The notes below the pieces were generated by a model. That model saw only the letters and a list, made by a program, of their open reading frames with translations. It did not search any database and had not been told where the DNA came from. Of a stretch of 64,000 bases of DNA, positions 4,354 to 59,798 are shown one piece after another (positions within the stretch are counted from its first letter, which is position 1; every line of letters starts with the position of its first letter). Origin of the DNA: Heterotrichella gracilis (taxonomy: Eukaryota; Sar; Xanthophyceae; Tribonematales; Xanthonemataceae); assembly GCA_032358255.1 (NCBI GenBank), contig JAULBX010002778.1, positions 1 through 64,000 on the forward strand. The letters run 5' to 3'. Both the position numbers and the translations under genes were made by a program.

Positions 4354-6153
4354 ATGCAGCGCCTCAGAGCGGTTGTCAAGGCTTTGGTGAGTGAACGTAT
4401 CGCAGTGGAGGCTGGACGCTGGCATAGGACCGTATGCATGCATATGGTGCATGTGTCCAGACAGGTCACACATGCAAGCACCGGTACTACAGGCGGTGTC
4501 ACGTCCCTGGTCTCATGGGTGCAGGATTTTGCTCCTCCGACGGTTGGGCGCCATTGGTCCCTGGCAGCGGCTGGGTGCTCCGCTGTGGGCCCTCGCTCCA
4601 TGGCCACTGTGCAGGGCCAGGGGGTGGCGGAGGCGAGGGGGCGCCCAACATACTACGCCTCCCGTGAAGGTGCGTGCTCATAGCCACTGCATACTGGCAA
4701 TTGGTAGGCACAACGAAGTACATGCCACTGTGGGTCCTTGCGGCTGCCTCGGGTGACAACCAGGCACTGCGCACCTGCGCCTGACTCATCACACACATGC
4801 ATCCCCGCCCTCCGGCTATGTGCCCACCACTGTGCCGCGCTTCAATGCCCTCACCGCCCCTCTCCGTGTAGAGAAGGCCACCGTCATCCAGTGGCACCTC
4901 GAGGCCAAGGAGAAGAGCGGCAAGACCTTCACGCAGATCGCACAAGAGTGCGGCTGGACAAACTGCTTCACTGCACAGCTGTTCCATGGCCAGGTGAGGG
5001 GTTATGGCCATTACACCGCGTGCCTGCAGGCGTGCCTTCCAGGCACTGCTTAGTCAACCAGTTTGCAGCAAGCGCAGCCCGCTTGCCCTGCACCAACCGC
5101 TCCCTTGCCTTGCCCCATCCCCCCAGGCGCAGCTGCCCCCTGGCGGCGCGTCCCGCCTGCGCGACAGTGTGCCCGCCCTTGAGGACGAGCAGCTTGAGCT
5201 GATGCAGCGAGTGCCCAGCCGCTCCTTTGACCCAAACATCACCCAGGAGCCGCATGTGTACAGGCTGCATGAGGTGTGCTGGGGTGGCACGCAATTAAAG
5301 CTCACGATTCCAACTTCCTAGGTGTTTTCCTGCGCACGCAAAGGCCACGCGCACATGGCTTCCATGCCTTCATGGTTGCACGCTGTTTGGGCGTGAAATG
5401 CAAATGAGGCGGTGTTATGGAGAGCGTCAAGTGGCAGATGCAAGTGCAGCACTATTCAGCACCACCTTGCACTCGTTGCTACTCCCAATTGGACCCCCTC
5501 CTACCGCAGGCTGTTATGCACTACGGGGTGTCGCTCCAGGCGCTGCTGAATGAGGAGTTTGGGTAAGTGCAACATGCTGCTGCGGGGCTGAAGGTAGCAA
5601 TGGAAAGGACCTTGTTTCACGCTGCCACAAACAACATGGCCGTGAGTCCCATGTGTGGTAATTGCAGACCACGCAAACAGATAGCAGTGCATTGATGGTT
5701 TGTTCTTTCATCCAGGGACGGCATCATGAGTGCCATCAACTTCTACATGGCTGTGGACAAGGTGCAGGGTGTGGAGGGGGATGAGCGGGTTGTCATCACC
5801 TTCAATGGCAAGGTGGGTGGTGGTTGGCAGGATGGCACACTGCCAGTGCGGCATGGTGGGTGGTGGTTGGCAGGATGGGGAGCCACACACGGCAGGGGTG
5901 TGGCTGACAGATATCTCATTCGTACACTGCTGGGGGAATCATTGATACCTGATTGCGCCCGTGCATGTGCAGTGCATCGCATATCTGCTGTGATGGGTGC
6001 ATGTCTTGCTTGTACGCCGCAACGTGCATCTGCGCTTGGCATCACCCCATGTTCCACCTGTCGTGTGGTGCTGCGCAGTTTCTGCCCCACATTGAGCAGA
6101 AGGCGGCTGATAACACAGCATTCAGCCTCCAACCCGAGACCAAGGCGGAATAA
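4354..6153 (+). CDS. CYN: Cyanate hydratase (cyanase), with N-terminal targeting extension (7 exons)
   Basis: Cyanase converts cyanate and bicarbonate to ammonia and CO2 (via carbamate), detoxifying cyanate and supplying nitrogen. Exons: 4354-4386, 4525-4669, 4764-4993, 5127-5273, 5510-5562, 5716-5812, 6079-6153, giving 259 aa with all phases closing. The helical N-terminal domain has [13 protein letters not shown] and AQLFHGQ. The catalytic triad is intact: Arg182 and Glu185 in VYRLHE and Ser208 in DGIMSAI. The 3- and 23-residue spacings match Arg96, Glu99 and Ser122 of the E. coli enzyme. [11 protein letters not shown] is the usual C-terminal strand, followed by an 18-residue tail. About 90 residues precede the cyanase core, more than in most cyanases. 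They begin [11 protein letters not shown] and look like an organelle presequence. The first three exons are the least certain part. Confidence 0.92.
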
Positions 6154-25600: not shown

Positions 25601-28600
25601 CGTTTGTTTCCCTTGCCACCTGCTCTGGATGCAGCGCCCTGCGCATGCGGGGTGGGGGTGGGGAGTGTCAGCCACCAGGTACAACATGCATGCAGTGGGA
25701 CCTGAACGCACCCCACAGACCCATAGCAGCCAGGGCCACTGCCTGCAGGGAGCGGTTTTCAACCCAGGGTCATGTTATCACGCGATTCAGCTCGTCCCTG
25801 TTGCCCCTCCCTCTGTGCTCCTTACCTTCTTCTCCCCTGGCTGTGCGCCGTGGTCCGCGGTGCCCGCCTGCGGACCCCCCACCAGCTGCGACACCTCGCC
25901 ATCGTCCATGCGCCACCACGTACCACCGCCGCCCTCCTCACGCAGGTGGGCAACTGCAGCAGGGGAAAAAGGGGGAGCTCAGACCCTGCGCCAGAGCATG
26001 CCAACGCGCACGCACACATGCACAGGTCCACATGCAGGCACCAGTGCACGCCACTGCTGCAGCACTCTTTAGACCAGCCGGGAACGAGTCTCAGTGAACC
26101 CTCAACCCTAAACCCTAAACACAAAGGCCCGGGCCACAAAGTCCCGGATCTACCCTTCCCTCCCGGCTCACCATAATGTCCCTGGCTTGCAGATGTCCCC
26201 TTGTGGATGACCATGGCCACTAGCTCATACTCGTGATCCCCCCCGCTATCACCGCTGCCACGCCCCCCTTGCCCCGCCAGTGGGTTCACAAAGGCCCCCA
26301 GGTTGAGTGTCAAGGGGAAGCGCACCTTGTCGGACGCCTTCACCTTGTTGCCAGTCTGCAGCGCACAGCAGGGTTTGGACGAGAACATGAACGGTACTGC
26401 GACATTGCTGGAGATTGCTCGGCTGCTCAATACGCTCACACTCCACTGCGTGCATGTATGATACAGCAAGCAGCTGCATGCCCTGCTCCCCACATGGCCA
26501 CACACGCAACACACCCAATGAAGCCAGGCATCCAATGTGCATTGCCAGCACCCCACACTGCTTTATCGACACCCCATTTTCCCCGAGGTTCACCTTTAGA
26601 TCAAACACAAAGCGCTGCAGCGAGAGCGTGAGGTAGGGCGGCAGGGCGCGCAGGCGCAGCTGGCGAGTGGCGTCAACCTGAGGGGGGGGAGCGCAGGGGG
26701 GAGCATGGTGGGATGGTGGATGGTGGTGGCAAATGTGCACCTGCATGGGCTGTGGAAGATGAGACAAGTGCAGAGAAGACAATGTGTACCCACATCACAT
26801 CCTACCCACAGGCATGGCACCATGCTATACCCAGCAGGTACCGCAATCTTGCACGGCAACTATTGGCCATGCACCGCCACCATCTTAGCAGCAGCAAGGT
26901 GCGGTGCAGCAAGGTGAGGAGCCTATGTAGTTCACACCATTGCATGCCCTCCCCCACCTTTGCACAGCAGTGTTCGCACAGGTACTGGTTATCCCCTTCA
27001 AGCACCTCGGCAGACAGGAGCTGGGACTGCAAGGGGGGGAAGGAGTCAGGGGTTACGCGGAAGGAATACGGACGGATGTGGCAGTCAATGGCACTGATGA
27101 GGCCATGCCAATCCTCCCCCCATTGGCCATGCACCCCCCTCCCCTCCCCGCCCCTTACCAGGCTCTCCTCCAGCTGAGTCTTCCCCTTGACCTGCAGGTC
27201 GAGCTCGTAGAAGTGGGTACTGCGCTGGCTGCTGGCGGAGGCGTTGAAGCATACCTGGGGGGGGGGCATGGGGGGAATCTTGGGTTTGCCTGACCGTTCA
27301 AATTTGCAAGCACGACAATGTGGGGTGGCAATTGGCCATGGAGGATGTGGTGCATGGCAGGGGATACAGGCGGAGTCATGCAGCGTGTGTGTGGCATTTG
27401 GGCGCGTACCCCCCACAATGTTCCTTACCTGGCAAATTGTTTCATAGGCATACTCCCCCCTGAACAGCATGGGTATGAGCCCCTTCAGCTCCTGCACACC
27501 ACCACACCGCACACGCATCAGACACAGACTCCCAAACTCATCCCACCCATGTGGGTAGCCCAGCCCTTGCCGGGCGGCTGGCTCACGTGCATGGGCATGG
27601 GCCTTTGCGTGCGTGTGTGTGTGCGCGCAGCAGCTGTGGGACATGCATGCCGCCACTGCCAGGGTGGGATATGCACGCCAGCGCTAGGTGGGGATGGCCA
27701 GGACAGTCATGCACATGACCTCGCGCTCGCCCATGCGACCCCATCCGCAGAGCCCATGCAACCTCCTTGGCAGAGCCCATGCGCCCCCATTGGCAATGCC
27801 AGCCTCCCCTCTTTAACCCCCCACCTGCTGCGCCCCCCCCTCCATCTTCTTCTCCAGCATGGTCAGCAGCAGTTTCATGAACTCCTGGCCGTCCTGCACA
27901 AGGGACACTCAACACATCGATGACCATGAACCGCACCATGCACTGCCGTACACAGCGCACCACCGGCAGCGTGACCAAGGTGCTCTGCAGCTGCGGTGCA
28001 CTTAATGCCGCACTGCACACAGGCAGCAGATATGCATGTATATGCATGTAGCCCACCCCCGCCCCCGGCCTGTCTACCCCACCTGCTGCACCCTTGTGTC
28101 CAGGTGCAACGTCTGCGCCAGGCCGGCCGAGTCAACCACGCGCAGGGGTCCGCTCTGCAGCTGGGCAAATAGCTGCCTGCACAAAGGGGGGGCAGGGGGC
28201 AGGGGGTGAGGATGCCAATGAGAAGCAACAGGTGGCGTGGGGTGAGCTGGGGGCAGCGGCCCCTCGCTACTCCTCCATGCACTGTATCGAGCTGGACTGC
28301 ATCAGCCCCTGGTGCTGCGAGAGCGTGCATGCTGGATCAGCTGGTGGAGGGGCATTCCAACATGTTGACATGCATGATCAACGCCCCTGTCGTCATGCAG
28401 ACCGTGCTGCTCACATGCATGACCACCATCCCCACCCCCATCCCCACCCCCACCCCCACCCTCAGGCCCGAACCACCTCCCGCAGCGCCGCACTGATCAG
28501 ACACTGGGGTGTGCGCATGCAACCGGACAACTCCCTATGCATCGCCCCTCCACCATCCCCCGCTGCCTTACACCCACCTGAGTTCCGCCACCACCGGCTC

Positions 28601-29438
28601 CTGTGCGACCCCCCCCTTGAGTGCATATAGCCCCCCCCTGAACGCACCCATCGCTGCCAGGCACTGCAGTGGTGCGTTGACATAGCAGGTGTTGCCCAGG
28701 TTGCGCAGGCCGCAGGGGGTGGAGGGGGACTGCAGGGAGAGGGGAGGAAGGGGTGGGTGAACAGCTTGCTAGGGGTGAGGAGAGGGCGGTTGTGTTTGGG
28801 TGGAGGGGTCCGCATTTGTGCAGTGCCAGGCCCCCCAAATATCAGCAAGACTAAGTGTCCTGACATGTGCAGTGGGATGACTAGGCTGCACGTGCCGGAC
28901 TGTTTGTTAAATGTCCTGACAGTGCAGTTGGGGCAGGGCACCACACCTGGGCCGCTGCTGCTGCGCAGCAGTGTAGTGGCGTGCTTGTGCGGGGGTCTGA
29001 GCCTGAACTGGATCAGGTGCACTGCACCACACATTGCAAGAAACAAAGAATGGTCATGGTGTGCGTCTTGAGGGCTTATGTCAGTTCAGCCTGTACCCCC
29101 CACAACCCACTGGCACCCACTCCCCAGCCACCTACCTCGCGCTTGTTGTCCTCGGGGTTGTCGCCCAGACCCAGCAACGCCTGCAAGTCCCGTTGCCACA
29201 GACCCTTCTTTCGGAACCCCCCTGGCGCAGGCACCAGACCGCACAGGCAGCCAGGGTTTGCTTTCTTGCCCTGGCAGGCCTTGGAGCAGGGGTCTGGGCA
29301 GATGGTGTCAGCCCCCAGGAGGGACAGCTGCTCGGCGCCAGAGAGAGTCCCCGCCTCTGCTTTTGCTTTCAAGTCCCATAGCTGATTGGACGATAGGCTG
29401 GCTGCCTTCGGGCGTGGGCCCACCTTAGACCGCTTCAT
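19607..29438 (-). CDS. UBP26: UBP26/USP48-type ubiquitin-specific protease (23 exons)
   Basis: Cysteine protease removing ubiquitin; the plant ortholog acts on histone H2B. Exons (minus): 29438-29136, 28729-28578, 28176-28083, 27893-27825, 27491-27429, 27254-27159, 27026-26958, 26677-26594, 26355-26172, 25953-25826, 25638-25364, 25142-24865, 24492-24350, 24068-23974, 23714-23522, 23127-22987, 22756-22541, 22252-22092, 21690-21542, 21119-20971, 20764-20605, 20403-20279, 19891-19607. All phases close, giving 1203 aa. Catalytic Cys116 is in GLRNLGNTCYVNAPLQC, His370 in SASQGHYVAHLREE, Asp388/389 in WWRMDDGEV; CEHCC is part of the zinc finger. Three DUSP domains follow (about 560-640, 668-735, 895-990), then a ubiquitin-like domain ending near DSGTYDPNDMEAV. 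Between DUSP2 and DUSP3 lie a UIM (DEEQLQLALAMSVAD, 773-787) and a SIM-like AIDLT (813-817). Confidence 0.95.
21421..21440. repeat. CATGG pentanucleotide microsatellite in a UBP26 intron
   Basis: Four tandem CATGG units in the intron between exons starting at 21690 and 21119. A long A+T-rich block (about 21190-21400) in the same intron differs sharply in composition from the surrounding GC-rich gene. Confidence 0.8.
26105..26120. repeat. Interstitial telomere-like motif (CCCTAAA type)
   Basis: ACCCTAAACCCTAAAC occurs in a UBP26 intron. Similar TTTAGGG-type pieces are at about 22304-22316, 51058-51074 and 53043-53070. This is the Arabidopsis/Chlorella-type telomere unit and also matches the plant telo-box. 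Confidence 0.5.
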
Positions 29439-52527: not shown

Positions 52528-55500
52528 ATGTCTTGGGTACTTCGCCGACACACCTCAGGCTCCTCAACACACCTGCCCATCAACCAGTGGCAATTGCAGC
52601 TGTAAGTCTTGAAGGCATCTTCTAGCTGAGCACTATGCTGCATGCTCCCAGTGACACAGTGGCCTCGCCCTGATCAAATTCCACCCACATATGTCCCCCA
52701 CCCCACCCACACACCCCTTGTCCCAGGTGCCGCCCCCGCCTGTCCACCACCACCCTATACACCCTGCTGGCGCTGGCACTGCTGGTGATGACCAACCTGT
52801 GGGTGTCAGACTACTTTGTGCCCCCCGCCTGCTACGACCAGTCATCTGTGGCCAAGGCGCTCACACTGCTGCCGCACGATATGCATATGGCGGGGGTTGG
52901 GGCAGGCAAGAGAGGGGGAGTGGGTGGCGCATCAAGGGGGAAGGGAGTGCCACAGCCTGTAGCTGGCAGACAGTCCAGTGGTGTAGCAAGGCTGGAGGTA
53001 AGGGGTGCAGACACGGGAGTGGGTTGAGAGGGCTGCGTATCAATACCCTAGGTTAGGGTATTAGGGTGTACCTGATTGATACATCCACAGCTTAAGGGTG
53101 AACAGCGCGCGCAGCTGCCATTACTGTTACATGCCATGAAAATCATTTGCATAGGAACGCCATGGGCAGCGGGGTCAGCATTTGACCGCACATTGCATAG
53201 GTGCCCAGTGTATGCCCCTGGCATTACAGCCTGATACCTCGGTCAGGCAGTGGCACAGTGGAAAGGTACTCGGATTACAGTAAATAGGGTACCCCTATTC
53301 TACCCTACCTCCCCCCCACATCCTCCCCTGGCCAGGTGCGTGGCAAGTTCCTGTTCCTGTCTGGTGCCAAGTACTACATCAAGGGGGTGACTAACGGCAC
53401 ATTCAAGAGGAGCAGGGAGGGAGACCTGTACCCAGAGAGGGATCAGGTGAAGGGGCGCAACAAGGAATTTTTGTCAAGTTGTGAATTCTGGAATGGGGTG
53501 GGTTTTCCCTTCATACTACATGTGCGCAACCCCTGGTTGGATGCGCTTCCGTGCCATTGGGCAACAAGTTTCATTTGGGACCTGAACTCACATACTTACT
53601 CGCGAGGCTGCAGGCTGGTATCCTTCATTTTGAGAAAATAGAATCCCCAGTCTAGGTCAGCAATGTGTTGGTGGCATGTAGCCGGCATTGTAGTTGGCGC
53701 GTCAGTATCACTGTTGAGCGATGAGCCTCCTGATTGCTCCGCCCTTGGCCCAGGCCCTGCGTGACCTGCAAGGCATGGCTGCTGCGCATGTCAACACGGT
53801 GCGCCTGTACACCCCGCCGCCCTGCTGGCTGCTGGACATGGGATACGGGCTGGGGCTAAGGTGAGGGGCCCTGTGGGGGTGGAGGGAGTATATGCAAGGT
53901 GGATAGGTAGAGGGAAGGGATGACTGTGTAGTTATACAGATCAGTGATACATTATAGTCTTCCTGGCGCATGCATGCCAATGCTGACATGTGCACTGCAG
54001 GGTAACCCGGCACCAGGCTGCATAGCAGAAATAGTGTAGCCATATGAAGAGTACAATTATTGCTGCATTTACCACAGTATCCAGCAAACGAGGATGCTGT
54101 TCCACATGTGCACCGCAGTGCAAGAAGCAATGCTCCTATATAACAGCATTGAACTTCCATGTCATGCCAGCCTTGGTAGACAAGCATATTGCCAGCTCAG
54201 AACATGAGTACTCTAGAGAAGTGAGGAAGCCTGCTAATGCCATCCTTTCCTGCCCACCAGGTTCATCATTGGCCTCCCCTGGGACCAGGACAGCATGTTC
54301 CTCAGCGCCTGCTCCCGCCATCACATCACCACCGTGGTGCGCAGAGTGGTTGGCGCACTGTCTGGCCACCCCCATGTGGCGCTGTACCTGCTGGCCAATG
54401 AGATGCCGCCCAAACTGGTGAGATGGTGAGTACATGCATCATGAAACCTGCAGGCATCAATTGCTGCTGTGCAGGTGTACCAGGTGCACCAGGTGTGCGC
54501 GTGATAAAGACAATATGTGCTCATTGTGATTATGATTATTATCATTTTTGTGATTACGATTAAGGTGCACATGCCATGATGTGTGGTATATACTGATTAG
54601 CTATGATTGCCTATCACAGTAGGCAATAGAGGACCTTCACACGTCCCTGATGCACATGGTGCCCTGACACGCATGCAAGCTCGCTTGCGTGGCTGCTAGC
54701 TGTCAGCCACCACATCAAGCCCATGCATGGATATGGGCTATGAGACAACACAGGATGCGGTAGCACTCGTTGTCAACAAACTGTTACAGTAACAACCAAC
54801 TGTATACTTGACATGGTATACGTTGTAATACTAATTAAATTTCCCCTCCACCAGGTATGGCCACCCCGCAGTTTTCCTCCTTCCTGCACACCCTGTACCA
54901 GGCGGCCAAGGAGGAGGACCCCAGGGCGCTGGTCAGTGCAGCCAACTTCCCCACAACTGAGTATATGAGCCTCCCCTTCCTGGACCTGGCGTCATTCAAT
55001 GTGTACATCGAGGACACCGGCTCCTTTGCAGGCTACATGGCGCGGCTGCAGACGCTGGTGGGGGAGCGGCCGCTGCTGCTGTCAGAAGTCGGGGTGAGGC
55101 AAATGATGGGCAGCCAAGATGGCGCTAGGGTGTGTTGTGGGCATCCAGAGTCCTGTGTGGAGGGTGAAGTATGCGTGCAGGGGGGGCTGTGAGTAGCATT
55201 TGTTTTTTATGTGTGATGCATCCACATGTGAATGCATGGCTGTCAATGAATCCATTCAGTGTGTCACTCAGTTGTCCACATCACATGCACATGCACACCA
55301 TGGTGATTCATCATGACCATAGCAGTCCCTCCTCAGGTTGACAACTACCACCACGACTTCAGCTACCAGGTGGACGTGCTGAGCCCGAGGTGCGGGCGGC
55401 GTGGCAGCGGGGCCTAGCCGGGTGTGCCTCTTTGCGTGGACTGACCAGTGGGCGGTGAAGAACAGGGAGATAAAGGACTGGTGAGCAGGAGGGGAGGGGG

Positions 55501-58500
55501 TGGCTACAGGTCACACGGTTGGTCCTGTCTTGTTGAACTGCAAATGTGGCAATTGGAGGCAAATGTGTCGCCCAGTGAATTGCGCAATGTAATGTGAGGG
55601 CAAGTCGAGCAAGTCCAGGGGTTCATGTTGGGCAAAGTGTATTAATGCATGTTCCCATTACGCTCCAGCAGCCCAGCCAGAGCTAGTTTGGCCCAGGGTC
55701 CACCGTTTCTGTACCTGCGCACACAGCACATGTTGTGAGCGGGGCCAAAAATACAGGCAAGCCCAAGGAAACCTCTCACTAAGGTCCTGGAGCACCTTCC
55801 CACTGCCCATGCCCACTCCCATTCCGCCCACCTGCAGGGACTTTGGCCTGGTCACCCGCACCCGCACCGCCAAGCCCGCCCTGGCTGCCGTGACCCTCCT
55901 GTTCTCCTCCGTTCCCTTCCACCCCCTGGAGCACCAGTGGCCCTTTGTGAGCGTGGCTGTGTGCATGCACAACAACGCAGCAACCATCAGGGAAACGTGC
56001 CAGGCGCTGGGCAAGGTGAGGGGCAGTGGGGGCTGTGCCATGTACGCAAATGCAGGTGGCAGGATGGCATGTTTGATGGATCTGTTTCATGCCAGACCAT
56101 CAAAATGTGTTCGCACATGGTGAGCGCAGACGCAGGGGGACCCGGTACACCCAGGGTCGCAAACCTGGGTATAAAAAGTATTATTACAATATTCTTTACT
56201 GAACCATAATGAACCATTTTGAAATTATTTGACCTGCTCATTCATATGTCAATTTACAGAACCAAACTATATTATATTATATTGCGGGGTTAAACCTATT
56301 AACATGCATGATTTATTGTGAATATGTAATTGGGATTTTAATTTTGTAACATATGCCACATTATAACAGTATTTCAAATTTAATTTGTATATTAATGAGG
56401 TCATTCACACCTGCGCTCTCTTGCCTGTATGTATAGTGCGGTACTATTTATCATAAGATGTTCACCCCGCACACAGATCCACTACAACTCCTCCGTGTTG
56501 GAGATCCTGTTCATTGATGATGCCTCCACAGACAACACACTGGCCCTGGTCTAGGACTGCATTGCGCAGGGGGGGGTGAAGGGGGCCGCGGTGCTCATCC
56601 ACGCCACCAACAGGGGGCTCAGCGCGGCACGCAACACAGCGCTGGGGGCTGCCAAGGGGGATATTATAGCATACACAGGTGGGAGGTGGGGAGGTGGGGA
56701 GGAGGTAAAAATCATATCGTGTACGAGTGGAGAGGTGGGGCATTACCCATTGCAGGCAATTACAATTGCCTGCATATATATTACTCTGTAGGGTCGGTGC
56801 CACACTGGGGCTATTTTTCAGCTATGGTAATCGGTGGTGCACATCCAGTGGTGGGCACCAGCTCTTCCTGAAACATGCATGACTTTGAGCCCGCTCGATT
56901 TATGGCACTTTGTGCCGAGTGGAGCCTCTCTTGCAGATGGTGATGCCATCCCCGACCCCCACTGGCTCCAGTACCTGGCCTATGAGTTCCCACACCGCAA
57001 TGTCTCGGCTGTGGGTGGCCCAGCAATGGGCCCCCCAGAGCCCGGCCTGGTGGCCAATGCCATTGCAAACTCCCCTGGTCAGGCCGCAGCAGTGCTCGTC
57101 AGCTACTATGACGAGCCGAGCACATCCCTGGGTGTAACATGGCCTACAACCGGAGCATACTGGTGGGGATCGGTGGGCTTGATGCGCAGTTCAGGATTGC
57201 AGGCGATGACGTGGATGTGTGCTGGCGTCTGCTGGACAAGGGCTGGGTGCTGGGATACCATCCGGCGGCACTGGTGTGGCACCACAGGCGGGCAACGGTG
57301 CACAGGTGGGGGCAGCAGCCTATTTTTTCCCAACACGCCATGGTGCAGGAGTCCTTGAACTAACCACAATGTCAGCATCCATCTCTAGGATGCCATCATG
57401 TTACATATATATTTCTCAAATCTATTATCAACCAGTAATAAGATTTTAGCTAATACGTCCAAACGAATATATCTTGCATGTGCTGGAAATACTTCTCAGC
57501 TCAAACCCACTCAACTACAAACTTTTGGTTTCAAGCAAGTTAAATTAACTTGGCTATGACACCCATTTCACACCCTTTTCTGCTCGCCTCTTGGCGTCAC
57601 CTAGGTACCTGTCCCAGCAGCACCTGTACGGCGTGGCTGAGGCAATGCTGCGCGTGAAGCACCCCGCAAGATACAACGCAATGGGGCAAGCCAAGTGGAA
57701 GGGGCACATCTACGGGTCCACGGTGGGTAGGATGTATGGCAATGTCAACAGGCAGCAGAGGGGGCAGTGGAGCAGGGATTGGGGGATCCTGCATTACACA
57801 CGCCATATGCGCATTCCCATAATTTTGAAGGTAGTATGCTGGGCATATATGCACATGGTATGGGCAGCACAGTGTTACACGTGTCACGTTGCTTGGTGCT
57901 ACAGTTCAGGCGGGGAGTCCCCTGCAGGCCATGTCTGTCCCGCTCCCATTCCTGGTCAAGCACGGTGCGCGGGTCAACCACGGCCAGTTCAACAGCCACC
58001 TGTTCCAGTCTCTGTACAGCCCTGGCGCATCCGGGCTGGCGGCGCTGCCACTCATGCCGCACGCGCACCTGCTGCTGGTAGGAGCACTGGGGGCTGCAGG
58101 TGGGGCTGCGGTAATGGTCTGGTGCAGGGCTCTGAGTGGCCTGCAGTGGTCACATCTGGAAGTTGGGTATAAGTCTTCATAGTATGGATGAGCGCTGTTG
58201 GTGTGCAGGGGTATATTGTGGGCGAATGCGTATATTGCCAGCCATTGCAATGGCCACATGCTCCAGCTGGGTATGGTATTGTCATGCCAGCCCACCGTAG
58301 ACGTCCCAGCTGGTGCATACCATAGTGGGCATCATGTGTGTGTGGATATAAGTGCTTGATTTAATATCAGCTGCATTGACTGGCACTGCATGGTGCAGGT
58401 GTTGGCTACCTTGCTTGGCGTCGCTTGCTTGTTGTGAGCCTGGTGGTGGCGCTGGCGCTGTCTGCCCTCACGGTCAGCGAGGCGGCGTACAGTGCGCTGC

Positions 58501-59798
58501 AGATGCCGCTGATCAGATACAAGCAGTGAATGCCGGGCAACGGGAGGCATGGAATTGGCTACCTGACTTAGGGAAGGGAATGTGCCTGTTTGAGCGCGCA
58601 TGTCTTGATTTTTGCAGACCATTAATAATATTGTACACCCCTTGATGTAAACAGGGGTGATCAAATGTAAACCAGGAAGCACAAATAAATATATAAATTT
58701 CCTGTCTTTATTCCAACACTCCTTGGTGCAGCCTGTGAAGGCACTGCAGATGATTGCACCTTGCAGCACAATGCCGTGACAAGGATACCCATGGCACAAG
58801 CATGCACGTGGCTACGCAGGGTGCCTAAATCCCCGCCTTCCAACCTTTGCAGGCCAGCTGGCCTGATCACCTCCCCGCTCTCCCACCTCCATGCCGCCAC
58901 CCTGGTCACATGCCTACCTGCTGCAGCCAATGGCACGCCTAACAGGCCTGCTCATACACATCAATGCCAGCGCTCCCACCCCCTACCCCTTCGCCCTCCC
59001 CCTCCCCACGCGCACCATCCACCTGCCATCCCAGTCTGGTCTGGACACAAGCACCGCCCTGCAGCGTGTGTACGAGTCGATGCTGCATGAGCGACAACCC
59101 GTGGCGCACAATGGGGAGTGGGATGTGTGGGACCTGGAGTACAGGGCGGGGTACCTGGCAGGTGTGCATGTGAGGGGGGAGGAGTGGGGACTGGCAGTGA
59201 GGAATTGGTGTGTATGCATCCGCACAAAGTACCATTTTGCTGACAGACAGTGCGGGGAACATGATTAATGAACGTTCCACTCATCATGGCTACATTGCCA
59301 TGCACACTGGTGGGGCCATGACTTGCTTTGGAAGCCAAATGGTTGCAATTGCTGAAGCATTGCACGGGTGGCACCCGAGGTATACCAGTGTACGTGACAA
59401 GGACCTATCATCATGCATAGCTTTTAAACATGCAAATGGTAATGCACATGAGAGACGCGTGTCAATATTGCGTCAGTTGTGTACTTAGCTATTTGCAAAT
59501 GTATGTGACACTGCTCTGCAGGTGGGCGCACATGCGCCTGGTGGCATTTGAGTGGCACACCCGCACACACAGCCTGGTGCGCGTTCAGGTGTGGAGGCAC
59601 GTGCAGCCGCTGGCGCTGGCTGCAGGGGGGCTGGTGGGGGCAGTGGCGGCAGCGGCGGTGAGGGATCCTGGTGCAGGGGGTGGCGTCAAGGTGGCTGCGG
59701 TGGCTGGTGTGGTGGGCCAGGCTGTGGTGGTGGTGACATGGAACCAGGCATGTGCGGGTATGGCGGGGCTGGTGCAGGGGCTGGAACTGCTGCGGTGA
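52528..59798 (+). pseudogene. Membrane GH-like/GT2 fusion polysaccharide synthase, apparently disrupted (about 15 exons)
   Basis: The domain order resembles bacterial GH-GT2 fusions. N-terminal membrane helix (YTLLALALLVMTNLW, exons 52528-52601, 52727-52997). Glycosidase-like barrel: SGAKYYIKGVTNGTF, HVNTVRLYTPPPCWLLD, IIGLPWDQD, Glu in LANEMPPKL, Glu in LLLSEVG, FAWTDQWAV (exons 53336-53446, 53754-53860, 54261-54417, 54872-55093, 55337-55480). GT2 domain: FVSVAVCMHNNAATI, ILFIDDASTDNT, NRGLSAARNTALG, TDGDAIPDPHWL, IAGDDVDVCWRLLDKGW (55838-56015, 56477-56678, 56937-57305, 57605-57722). C-terminal part with helices: 57928-58077, from 58399, about 58853-59170, from about 59521. Breaks: two frame changes in 55337-55480, one in 56937-57305, likely ones near 58435 and 58915, and an in-frame TAG at 56552-56554. 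Exon lengths fit one-base losses. No other gene here is broken, so decay is likelier than sequencing error. Confidence 0.82.

Follow-up and report, generated by a model that had tools for sequence, protein, structure and literature searches.

The window analysed here is the first 64,000 nucleotides of contig JAULBX010002778.1 (assembly GCA_032358255.1), from the alga Heterotrichella gracilis. Its forward strand carries a gene that joins a glycoside hydrolase (GH) barrel to a family 2 glycosyltransferase (GT2) domain, here called the GH-GT2 gene. The gene starts with an ATG at 52528 and ends with a TGA at 59796-59798, the same ends that were given in an earlier reading made from the letters of the DNA (the sequence-only reading). 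The gene model, 52528-59798, has 15 exons and 14 introns, close to the "about 14" introns of that reading. All 14 introns are of the GT-AG type and range from 125 to 461 bases. The splice sites were picked by eye to make the frames join, and the phase agreement of the exons is therefore not an independent test of the model; the homology of the joined segments is. Under the chosen sites none of the junctions requires a frame change, and every change falls inside an exon.

Exon 1 (52528-52601) carries the start codon and a short N-terminal tail; it ends in a GT donor and its phase fits exon 2, and, being without a homolog, it is less certain than the others. Exon 2 (52727-52997) encodes, by hydropathy, an N-terminal membrane helix without bacterial counterpart, and a linker. 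Exons 3 (53336-53446), 4 (53754-53860) and 5 (54261-54425), read from the translation and the alignment with bacterial relatives, form the first part of a GH-A barrel, beginning in exon 3 with GKFLFLSGAKYYIKGVTNGTF and including in exon 5 the candidate acid/base glutamate (ANEM). The barrel continues in exon 6 (54855-55093), with the candidate nucleophile glutamate (SEVG), and ends in exon 7 (55337-55480), both read from the translation and a profile of the relatives. The GH-GT2 junction and the start of GT2 lie in exon 8 (55838-56015; translation and Pfam) and the GT2 core in exon 9 (56477-56678; translation, Pfam and alignment). Exon 10 (56937-57305; translation and profile) holds the DGD motif, GCNMA and GDDVDVCWRL, and exon 11 (57605-57722; translation and alignment) the end of the GT2 domain. 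These are followed by the FQSLY/LPLMP block in exon 12 (57928-58099; translation and alignment), a membrane helix in exon 13 (58399-58525; translation and hydropathy), the LLQPMARL block and C-terminal domain sequence in exon 14 (58853-59207; translation and profile), and further C-terminal domain sequence with the last hydrophobic stretches and the final stop in exon 15 (59522-59798; translation and hydropathy).

Read through with an X at each lesion, the product has 973 residues, in the order N-terminal membrane helix, GH-A barrel, GT2, membrane helices and C-terminal domain. Pfam assigns the GT2 domain to PF00535 (E 1.7e-23); matches to GH72 (E 0.02) and the GH2 barrel (E 0.051) fall below the cut-off. 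Alignment with the bacterial relatives shows that both candidate GH glutamates and the GT2 motifs DGD, GDDVDVCWRL and HHRR are kept. We take the glutamate in ANEM to be the acid/base and that in SEVG the nucleophile, by analogy within clan GH-A. The membrane helix, the glycosidase-like barrel with both glutamates and the GT2 motifs named in the sequence-only reading are all present. The N-terminal helix spans about residues 33-56, with a best 19-residue hydropathy of 1.74. No helix (19-residue hydropathy of at least 1.6) precedes the GKF motif, which marks the start of the barrel, in any of 118 bacterial relatives, two of the 120 being unsuitable for the test. In the alga and in three relatives, the stretch from GH to GT2 shows no hydropathy peak.

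The bacterial relatives are numerous. A search over about 5.8 billion proteins gave 2136 matches from the 7991 best candidates, and the figures given here are from the best 120 of these. Identity is 39-48% over 61-91% of the query (best E 5e-185), the length is 742-934 amino acids with one exception of 1467, and GH2-barrel and GT2 families are among the Pfam domains. The alignment with ten relatives is colinear from the GKF motif into the C-terminal domain, although one of them, P0033, stops early. In addition, a genome scan confirmed 192 bacterial relatives, of which 80 were kept. The family is found in Acidobacteria, Chloroflexi, Proteobacteria, Planctomycetes, Nitrospirae, Bacteroidetes, Actinobacteria, Cyanobacteria (L039, L053, L070 and L095) and others. 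Because the loci of the scan were retrieved with patterns that the alga's own sequence does not fit exactly, more closely related bacterial proteins may have been overlooked. The claim that the gene is of bacterial type and not a plant cellulose synthase is borne out by the colinear relatives and by Pfam, which lists for the algal protein general GT2 families and weak matches to GH families but nothing specific to cellulose synthases (CesA-Csl). NCBIfam models scored far below their cut-offs on four bacterial relatives, the best being MftF. A viral origin was rejected, since none of the 21 pattern matches from scanning viral contigs proved to be a relative.

The gene has the look of a nuclear gene. 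The exons have a GC content of 0.64 versus 0.49 in the introns. The GC content at third codon positions (GC3) is 0.78, close to the 0.80 (166 codons) of a neighbouring cyanate lyase gene, which is itself split by introns and whose named relatives are green algae and plants. The 14 introns point to a long residence in the nucleus, and together with the GC3 they support the sequence-only reading on this point. Bacterial contamination or a chimeric contig could be imagined, since the assembly does have contigs with long intronless genes of bacterial look, but the 14 GT-AG introns, their lower GC and the GC3 shared with the cyanate lyase on the same contig make this explanation extremely improbable.

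The reading frame is broken. A profile of 200 bacterial relatives was compared with the three frames of the spliced exons, and its segments switch frame along the gene: frame 0 runs up to 54873, frame 1 covers 54872-55384, frame 2 covers 55404-57103, frame 1 returns for 57112-58514 and frame 2 for 58909-59756. Between the two changes in exon 7, which fall at 55384 to about 55420, a 12-residue family-like island was read by eye in the remaining frame; the profile did not report it. The alternation of the profile segments (0, 1, 2, 1, 2), together with the translations including this island, places five frame changes. Three are clear, two in exon 7 and one near 57110 in exon 10. The change near 54873 in exon 6 is graded probable because an alternative splice that drops about eight residues could avoid it, and that near 58905 in exon 14 because the surrounding stretch is weakly conserved. 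Besides these an in-frame TAG, seen in the translation, lies at 56552-56554 within exon 9. This count, three clear changes, two probable ones and one TAG, is exactly that of the sequence-only reading. The alternative splice at exon 6 also raises the idea that a shortened useful product is still made, such as a piece of the GH barrel anchored in the membrane. Reading by eye suggests that another donor and acceptor could preserve the frame from exon 5 to exon 6. However, this splice loses the conserved VRWYGHP stretch, and the clear changes in exon 7 would still cut the barrel short at its end and leave no GT2 domain at all. A useful short product thus has only a slight chance of being the explanation.

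No second close copy was found in a search of the alga's own genome, the other matches being GT2 domains at 20-34% identity. As the assembly stands, the disabling lesions therefore sit in the only close copy, as in a unitary pseudogene, and the open reading frame expected of the bacterial GH-GT2 family is absent from the alga.

A more serious concern is that the frame changes and the in-frame stop are sequencing or assembly errors in the contig, in which case the gene would be intact and still used. Four of the five frame-change sites are at or adjoin short runs of identical bases, and the catalytic residues, the splice sites and a host-like codon use are retained, as in a working gene. The error level of the assembly was gauged with its TCP-1, HSP90 and HSP70 genes. 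For these controls 131 of 133 listed matches were parsed (two weak HSP70-like rows, C331:544761 and C369:29564, were excluded), giving 11,910 codons and 103 consecutive pairs; three single-block matches are probably bacterial. There were no within-exon frame breaks in the 11,910 codons, by a check that needs enough sequence on either side to notice a break, misses breaks near exon ends and reveals one of the five in the GH-GT2 gene. The smallest gap between consecutive pairs was 67 bases. One stop each was found in 12 of the 131 rows, 11 of them within seven codons of the match end. The remaining one (L111), at codon 132 of 186 (101 profile positions), lies in a stretch resembling a read-through intron. 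The cyanate lyase neighbour is likewise without an inner break, its exon pieces covering residues 3-187 of the 188 of its closest relative. Of the roughly 20 kb of neighbouring exons that the sequence-only reading calls unbroken, these checks covered that one gene, the three control families lying elsewhere in the assembly. Set against these controls, five changes and a substitution-type stop in one gene argue against error, and an in-frame TAG is atypical of a run-length error. Decay is thus more likely than sequencing error, which we regard as unlikely though still a serious contender.

Decay of the gene appears to have come late and to have struck an already altered protein. The algal protein keeps 128 of 150 near-invariant family residues, whereas a leave-one-out test with bacterial sequences (40 of 200) gave a minimum fraction of 0.95 and a median of 1.00. 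Retention of these 128 residues, of the GT-AG sites and of a host-like GC3 suggests that the loss was recent. It may also be particular to this strain, as the sequence-only reading has it, although no close relative turned up for a comparison, and the product may have been a wall polymer, as proposed there. As judged from the sequence, the protein is strongly diverged from before the loss, since 22 of the invariants are gone and its branch in the trees is long.

How the alga came by the gene was approached through its distribution and by phylogeny. None of the 240 matches listed for the GH-GT2 gene (the best 120 of 2136 and 120 of 196) is eukaryotic by source or name, though a distant eukaryotic homolog could hide, because most of the listed rows are nameless and the lower ranks extend beyond the best 120 per search. 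The database includes green-algal nuclear proteins, since a control search with the cyanate lyase returned Chlorella, Micractinium, Coccomyxa, Trebouxia, Apatococcus, Symbiochloris, Myrmecia, plants and eukaryote transcriptome sets. Among the titles and abstract openings listed in a limited literature search, none dealt with the family in eukaryotes, nor was a specific name or product found for the bacterial family.

In a quick tree of 95 rows (all 80 loci and 14 of the 120 listed proteins) the alga joined P0003 and P0014, the latter a protein from a metagenome-assembled genome of Phycisphaeraceae, with a Shimodaira-Hasegawa-like approximate likelihood ratio (SH-aLRT) of 99. The algal end branch was 2.55 changes per column versus a median of 0.39, and the placement of a branch so long is unsure. 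Trees of 40 rows were built from 31 of the 80 loci and eight of the 120 listed proteins. The grouping with P0003 and P0014 was not kept in them. In the careful 40-row tree the branch was 2.88 and no supported set contained the alga. A tree in which the alga was held with three cyanobacteria had a likelihood 13 units above the quick free tree of the same 40 rows and was not rejected (approximately unbiased test, p-AU 0.74). This cyanobacteria-held quick tree in turn falls about 18 log units short of the careful free tree; the constraint was not repeated at that depth. The source may thus have been cyanobacterial. Of the protein search and phylogeny that the sequence-only reading had proposed, the search did return bacterial relatives, but a donor could not be placed, as the trees disagree and the algal branch is very long.

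The same data bear on vertical inheritance from the plastid ancestor or an early eukaryote, with loss in nearly all other algae. The presence of the family in Cyanobacteria and the tolerance of the cyanobacteria-held tree speak for it, and great age would fit the 14 introns and the long end branch. Against it stand the 240 listed matches, none eukaryotic by source or name, from a database in which green-algal and plant proteins are present, and the careful tree, which is better than the constrained one and leaves the alga without a supported sister. Vertical descent is therefore rather improbable.

Taken together, the GH-GT2 gene is probably a green-algal nuclear gene that descends from bacteria and is dead or dying; a history and mechanism are proposed below.

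The rest of the window and assembly gave a few further observations. The cyanate lyase gene, at 4603-6147 (+), is apparently intact; its product is 87% identical to a relative, P0121, and about 60% to those of Chlorella and Micractinium. In a cyanate lyase tree the host pairs only with P0121, without a supported place among green algae or in a named algal order. Among 20 long open reading frames (ORFs) nearby, Pfam recognised only cyanate lyase and a fragment of ubiquitin carboxyl-terminal hydrolase (UCH). When the assembly was searched for UCH, two short pieces turned up in the window, at 26173-26346 and 28625-28714 (-), too few for a frame test. Contigs C180, C639 and C331 carry long chaperonin, HSP90 and HSP70 genes in single blocks that look bacterial, and for this reason the assembly may include bacterial contigs. 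A search of the assembly for the RuBisCO large-subunit gene (rbcL) gave no matches.

The likely function of the ancestor was approached through the bacterial proteins. The AlphaFold model of P0014 has a predicted local distance difference test (pLDDT) score of 84.6 and a predicted template modelling (pTM) score of 0.84. Its best match in the PDB is GH157, over the GH barrel and at about 18% identity; GH2 enzymes tie with two of three GH157 entries. ATP-binding cassette (ABC) exporter domains were found in 32 of 48 ORFs downstream of bacterial copies, a biased rate because the 48 were hand-picked (plus strand, downstream) from 150 of the 227 that remained after thinning the 278 found. In P0075 (Chloroflexia) the exporter domains are inside the same protein as GH-GT2. 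In two loci the bacterial GH-GT2 gene is directly followed by two ABC exporter genes of about 600 amino acids each (L034, 8479-12080; L039, 8533-12137). ORFs of about 381 amino acids without a Pfam match follow the exporter at L054 10336-11478 (+) and L048 10300-11445 (+), and are a possible further member of the bacterial system. From the resemblance of the barrel to GH157 and GH2, and from the frequency of ABC exporters as neighbours, we infer that the ancestor may have been a glucan synthase-transglycosidase.

A mechanism can be proposed on this basis. The ancestor would have belonged to a widespread bacterial family. In this family the GH-A barrel and GT2 presumably share a side of the membrane, and membrane helices and a small C-terminal domain come after them. 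The GT2 domain would lengthen a chain, probably a beta-glucan, from a nucleotide sugar, and the barrel may cut, transfer or close the chain via transglycosylation. In bacteria the next-door ABC exporter would carry the product out of the cell, in the manner of cyclic beta-glucan systems. The algal line would have obtained the gene, presumably from bacteria, gained 14 introns and the N-terminal membrane anchor, and kept the catalytic residues. Later it would have lost the open frame, through lesions that are probably biological and in a loss that is probably recent.

More tentatively, and with the balance somewhat against it, the gene may represent a eukaryotic branch of the family in a little-sampled green-algal lineage. 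This would be an intron-rich, membrane-anchored synthase-transglycosidase, once making a bacterial-type glucan, perhaps cyclic or short and beta-1,3-linked, in a secretory membrane, with intact copies in relatives and the loss caught here. Should this be true, a complete bacterial enzyme for making a polymer was adapted to a eukaryotic membrane, acquiring a new anchor and 14 introns, before being discarded. Nature would then have tested whether an alga can make use of a bacterial glucan system. The finding also draws attention to a bacterial family that spans many phyla.

The closest known system is the bacterial GH-GT2 family itself (about 850 amino acids, labelled "glycosyltransferase" or "O-antigen biosynthesis protein"; for example P0014, L039 and L054). 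It shares with the algal gene the domain order, near-full-length colinearity, the catalytic residues and the C-terminal domain, while the algal copy differs in its 14 introns, added N-terminal helix, loss of near-invariant residues (128 of 150 kept) and broken frame. The pseudomonad GH17-GT2 protein "Orphan"/NdvB, a proposed cyclic beta-1,3-glucan synthase, is likewise a single membrane protein with a GH barrel and then GT2, according to part of PMC10237404. There, however, the GH17 lies behind a signal peptide and membrane helices separate it from GT2. GH17 is absent from the Pfam matches of the algal protein down to E 0.1. The cyclic beta-1,2-glucan synthase Cgs/ChvB also has GT and chain-processing domains on one, cytoplasmic, face and, per a title cited in PMC10901819, ABC export of its product, but it combines GT84 with a cyclase domain and a GH94 phosphorylase. 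The seven Pfam families listed for the algal protein do not include GH94. The endo-beta-1,3-glucanases of GH157 (LaGH157 in the PDB; BcellWH2_01931, PMC10229575) are the top fold match for the P0014 barrel, yet they have about 18% identity to it, and the portion of that paper used here mentions no GT2 domain. The GH8 lichenase that lichen-forming Trebouxiophyceae took over from bacteria (PMC11126685) is of another enzyme family, and the main text of that source contains neither "glycosyltransferase" nor "GT2". Its history is similar to the one proposed here: a bacterial glycan enzyme entered green algae, and some lines keep it whereas others have lost it.
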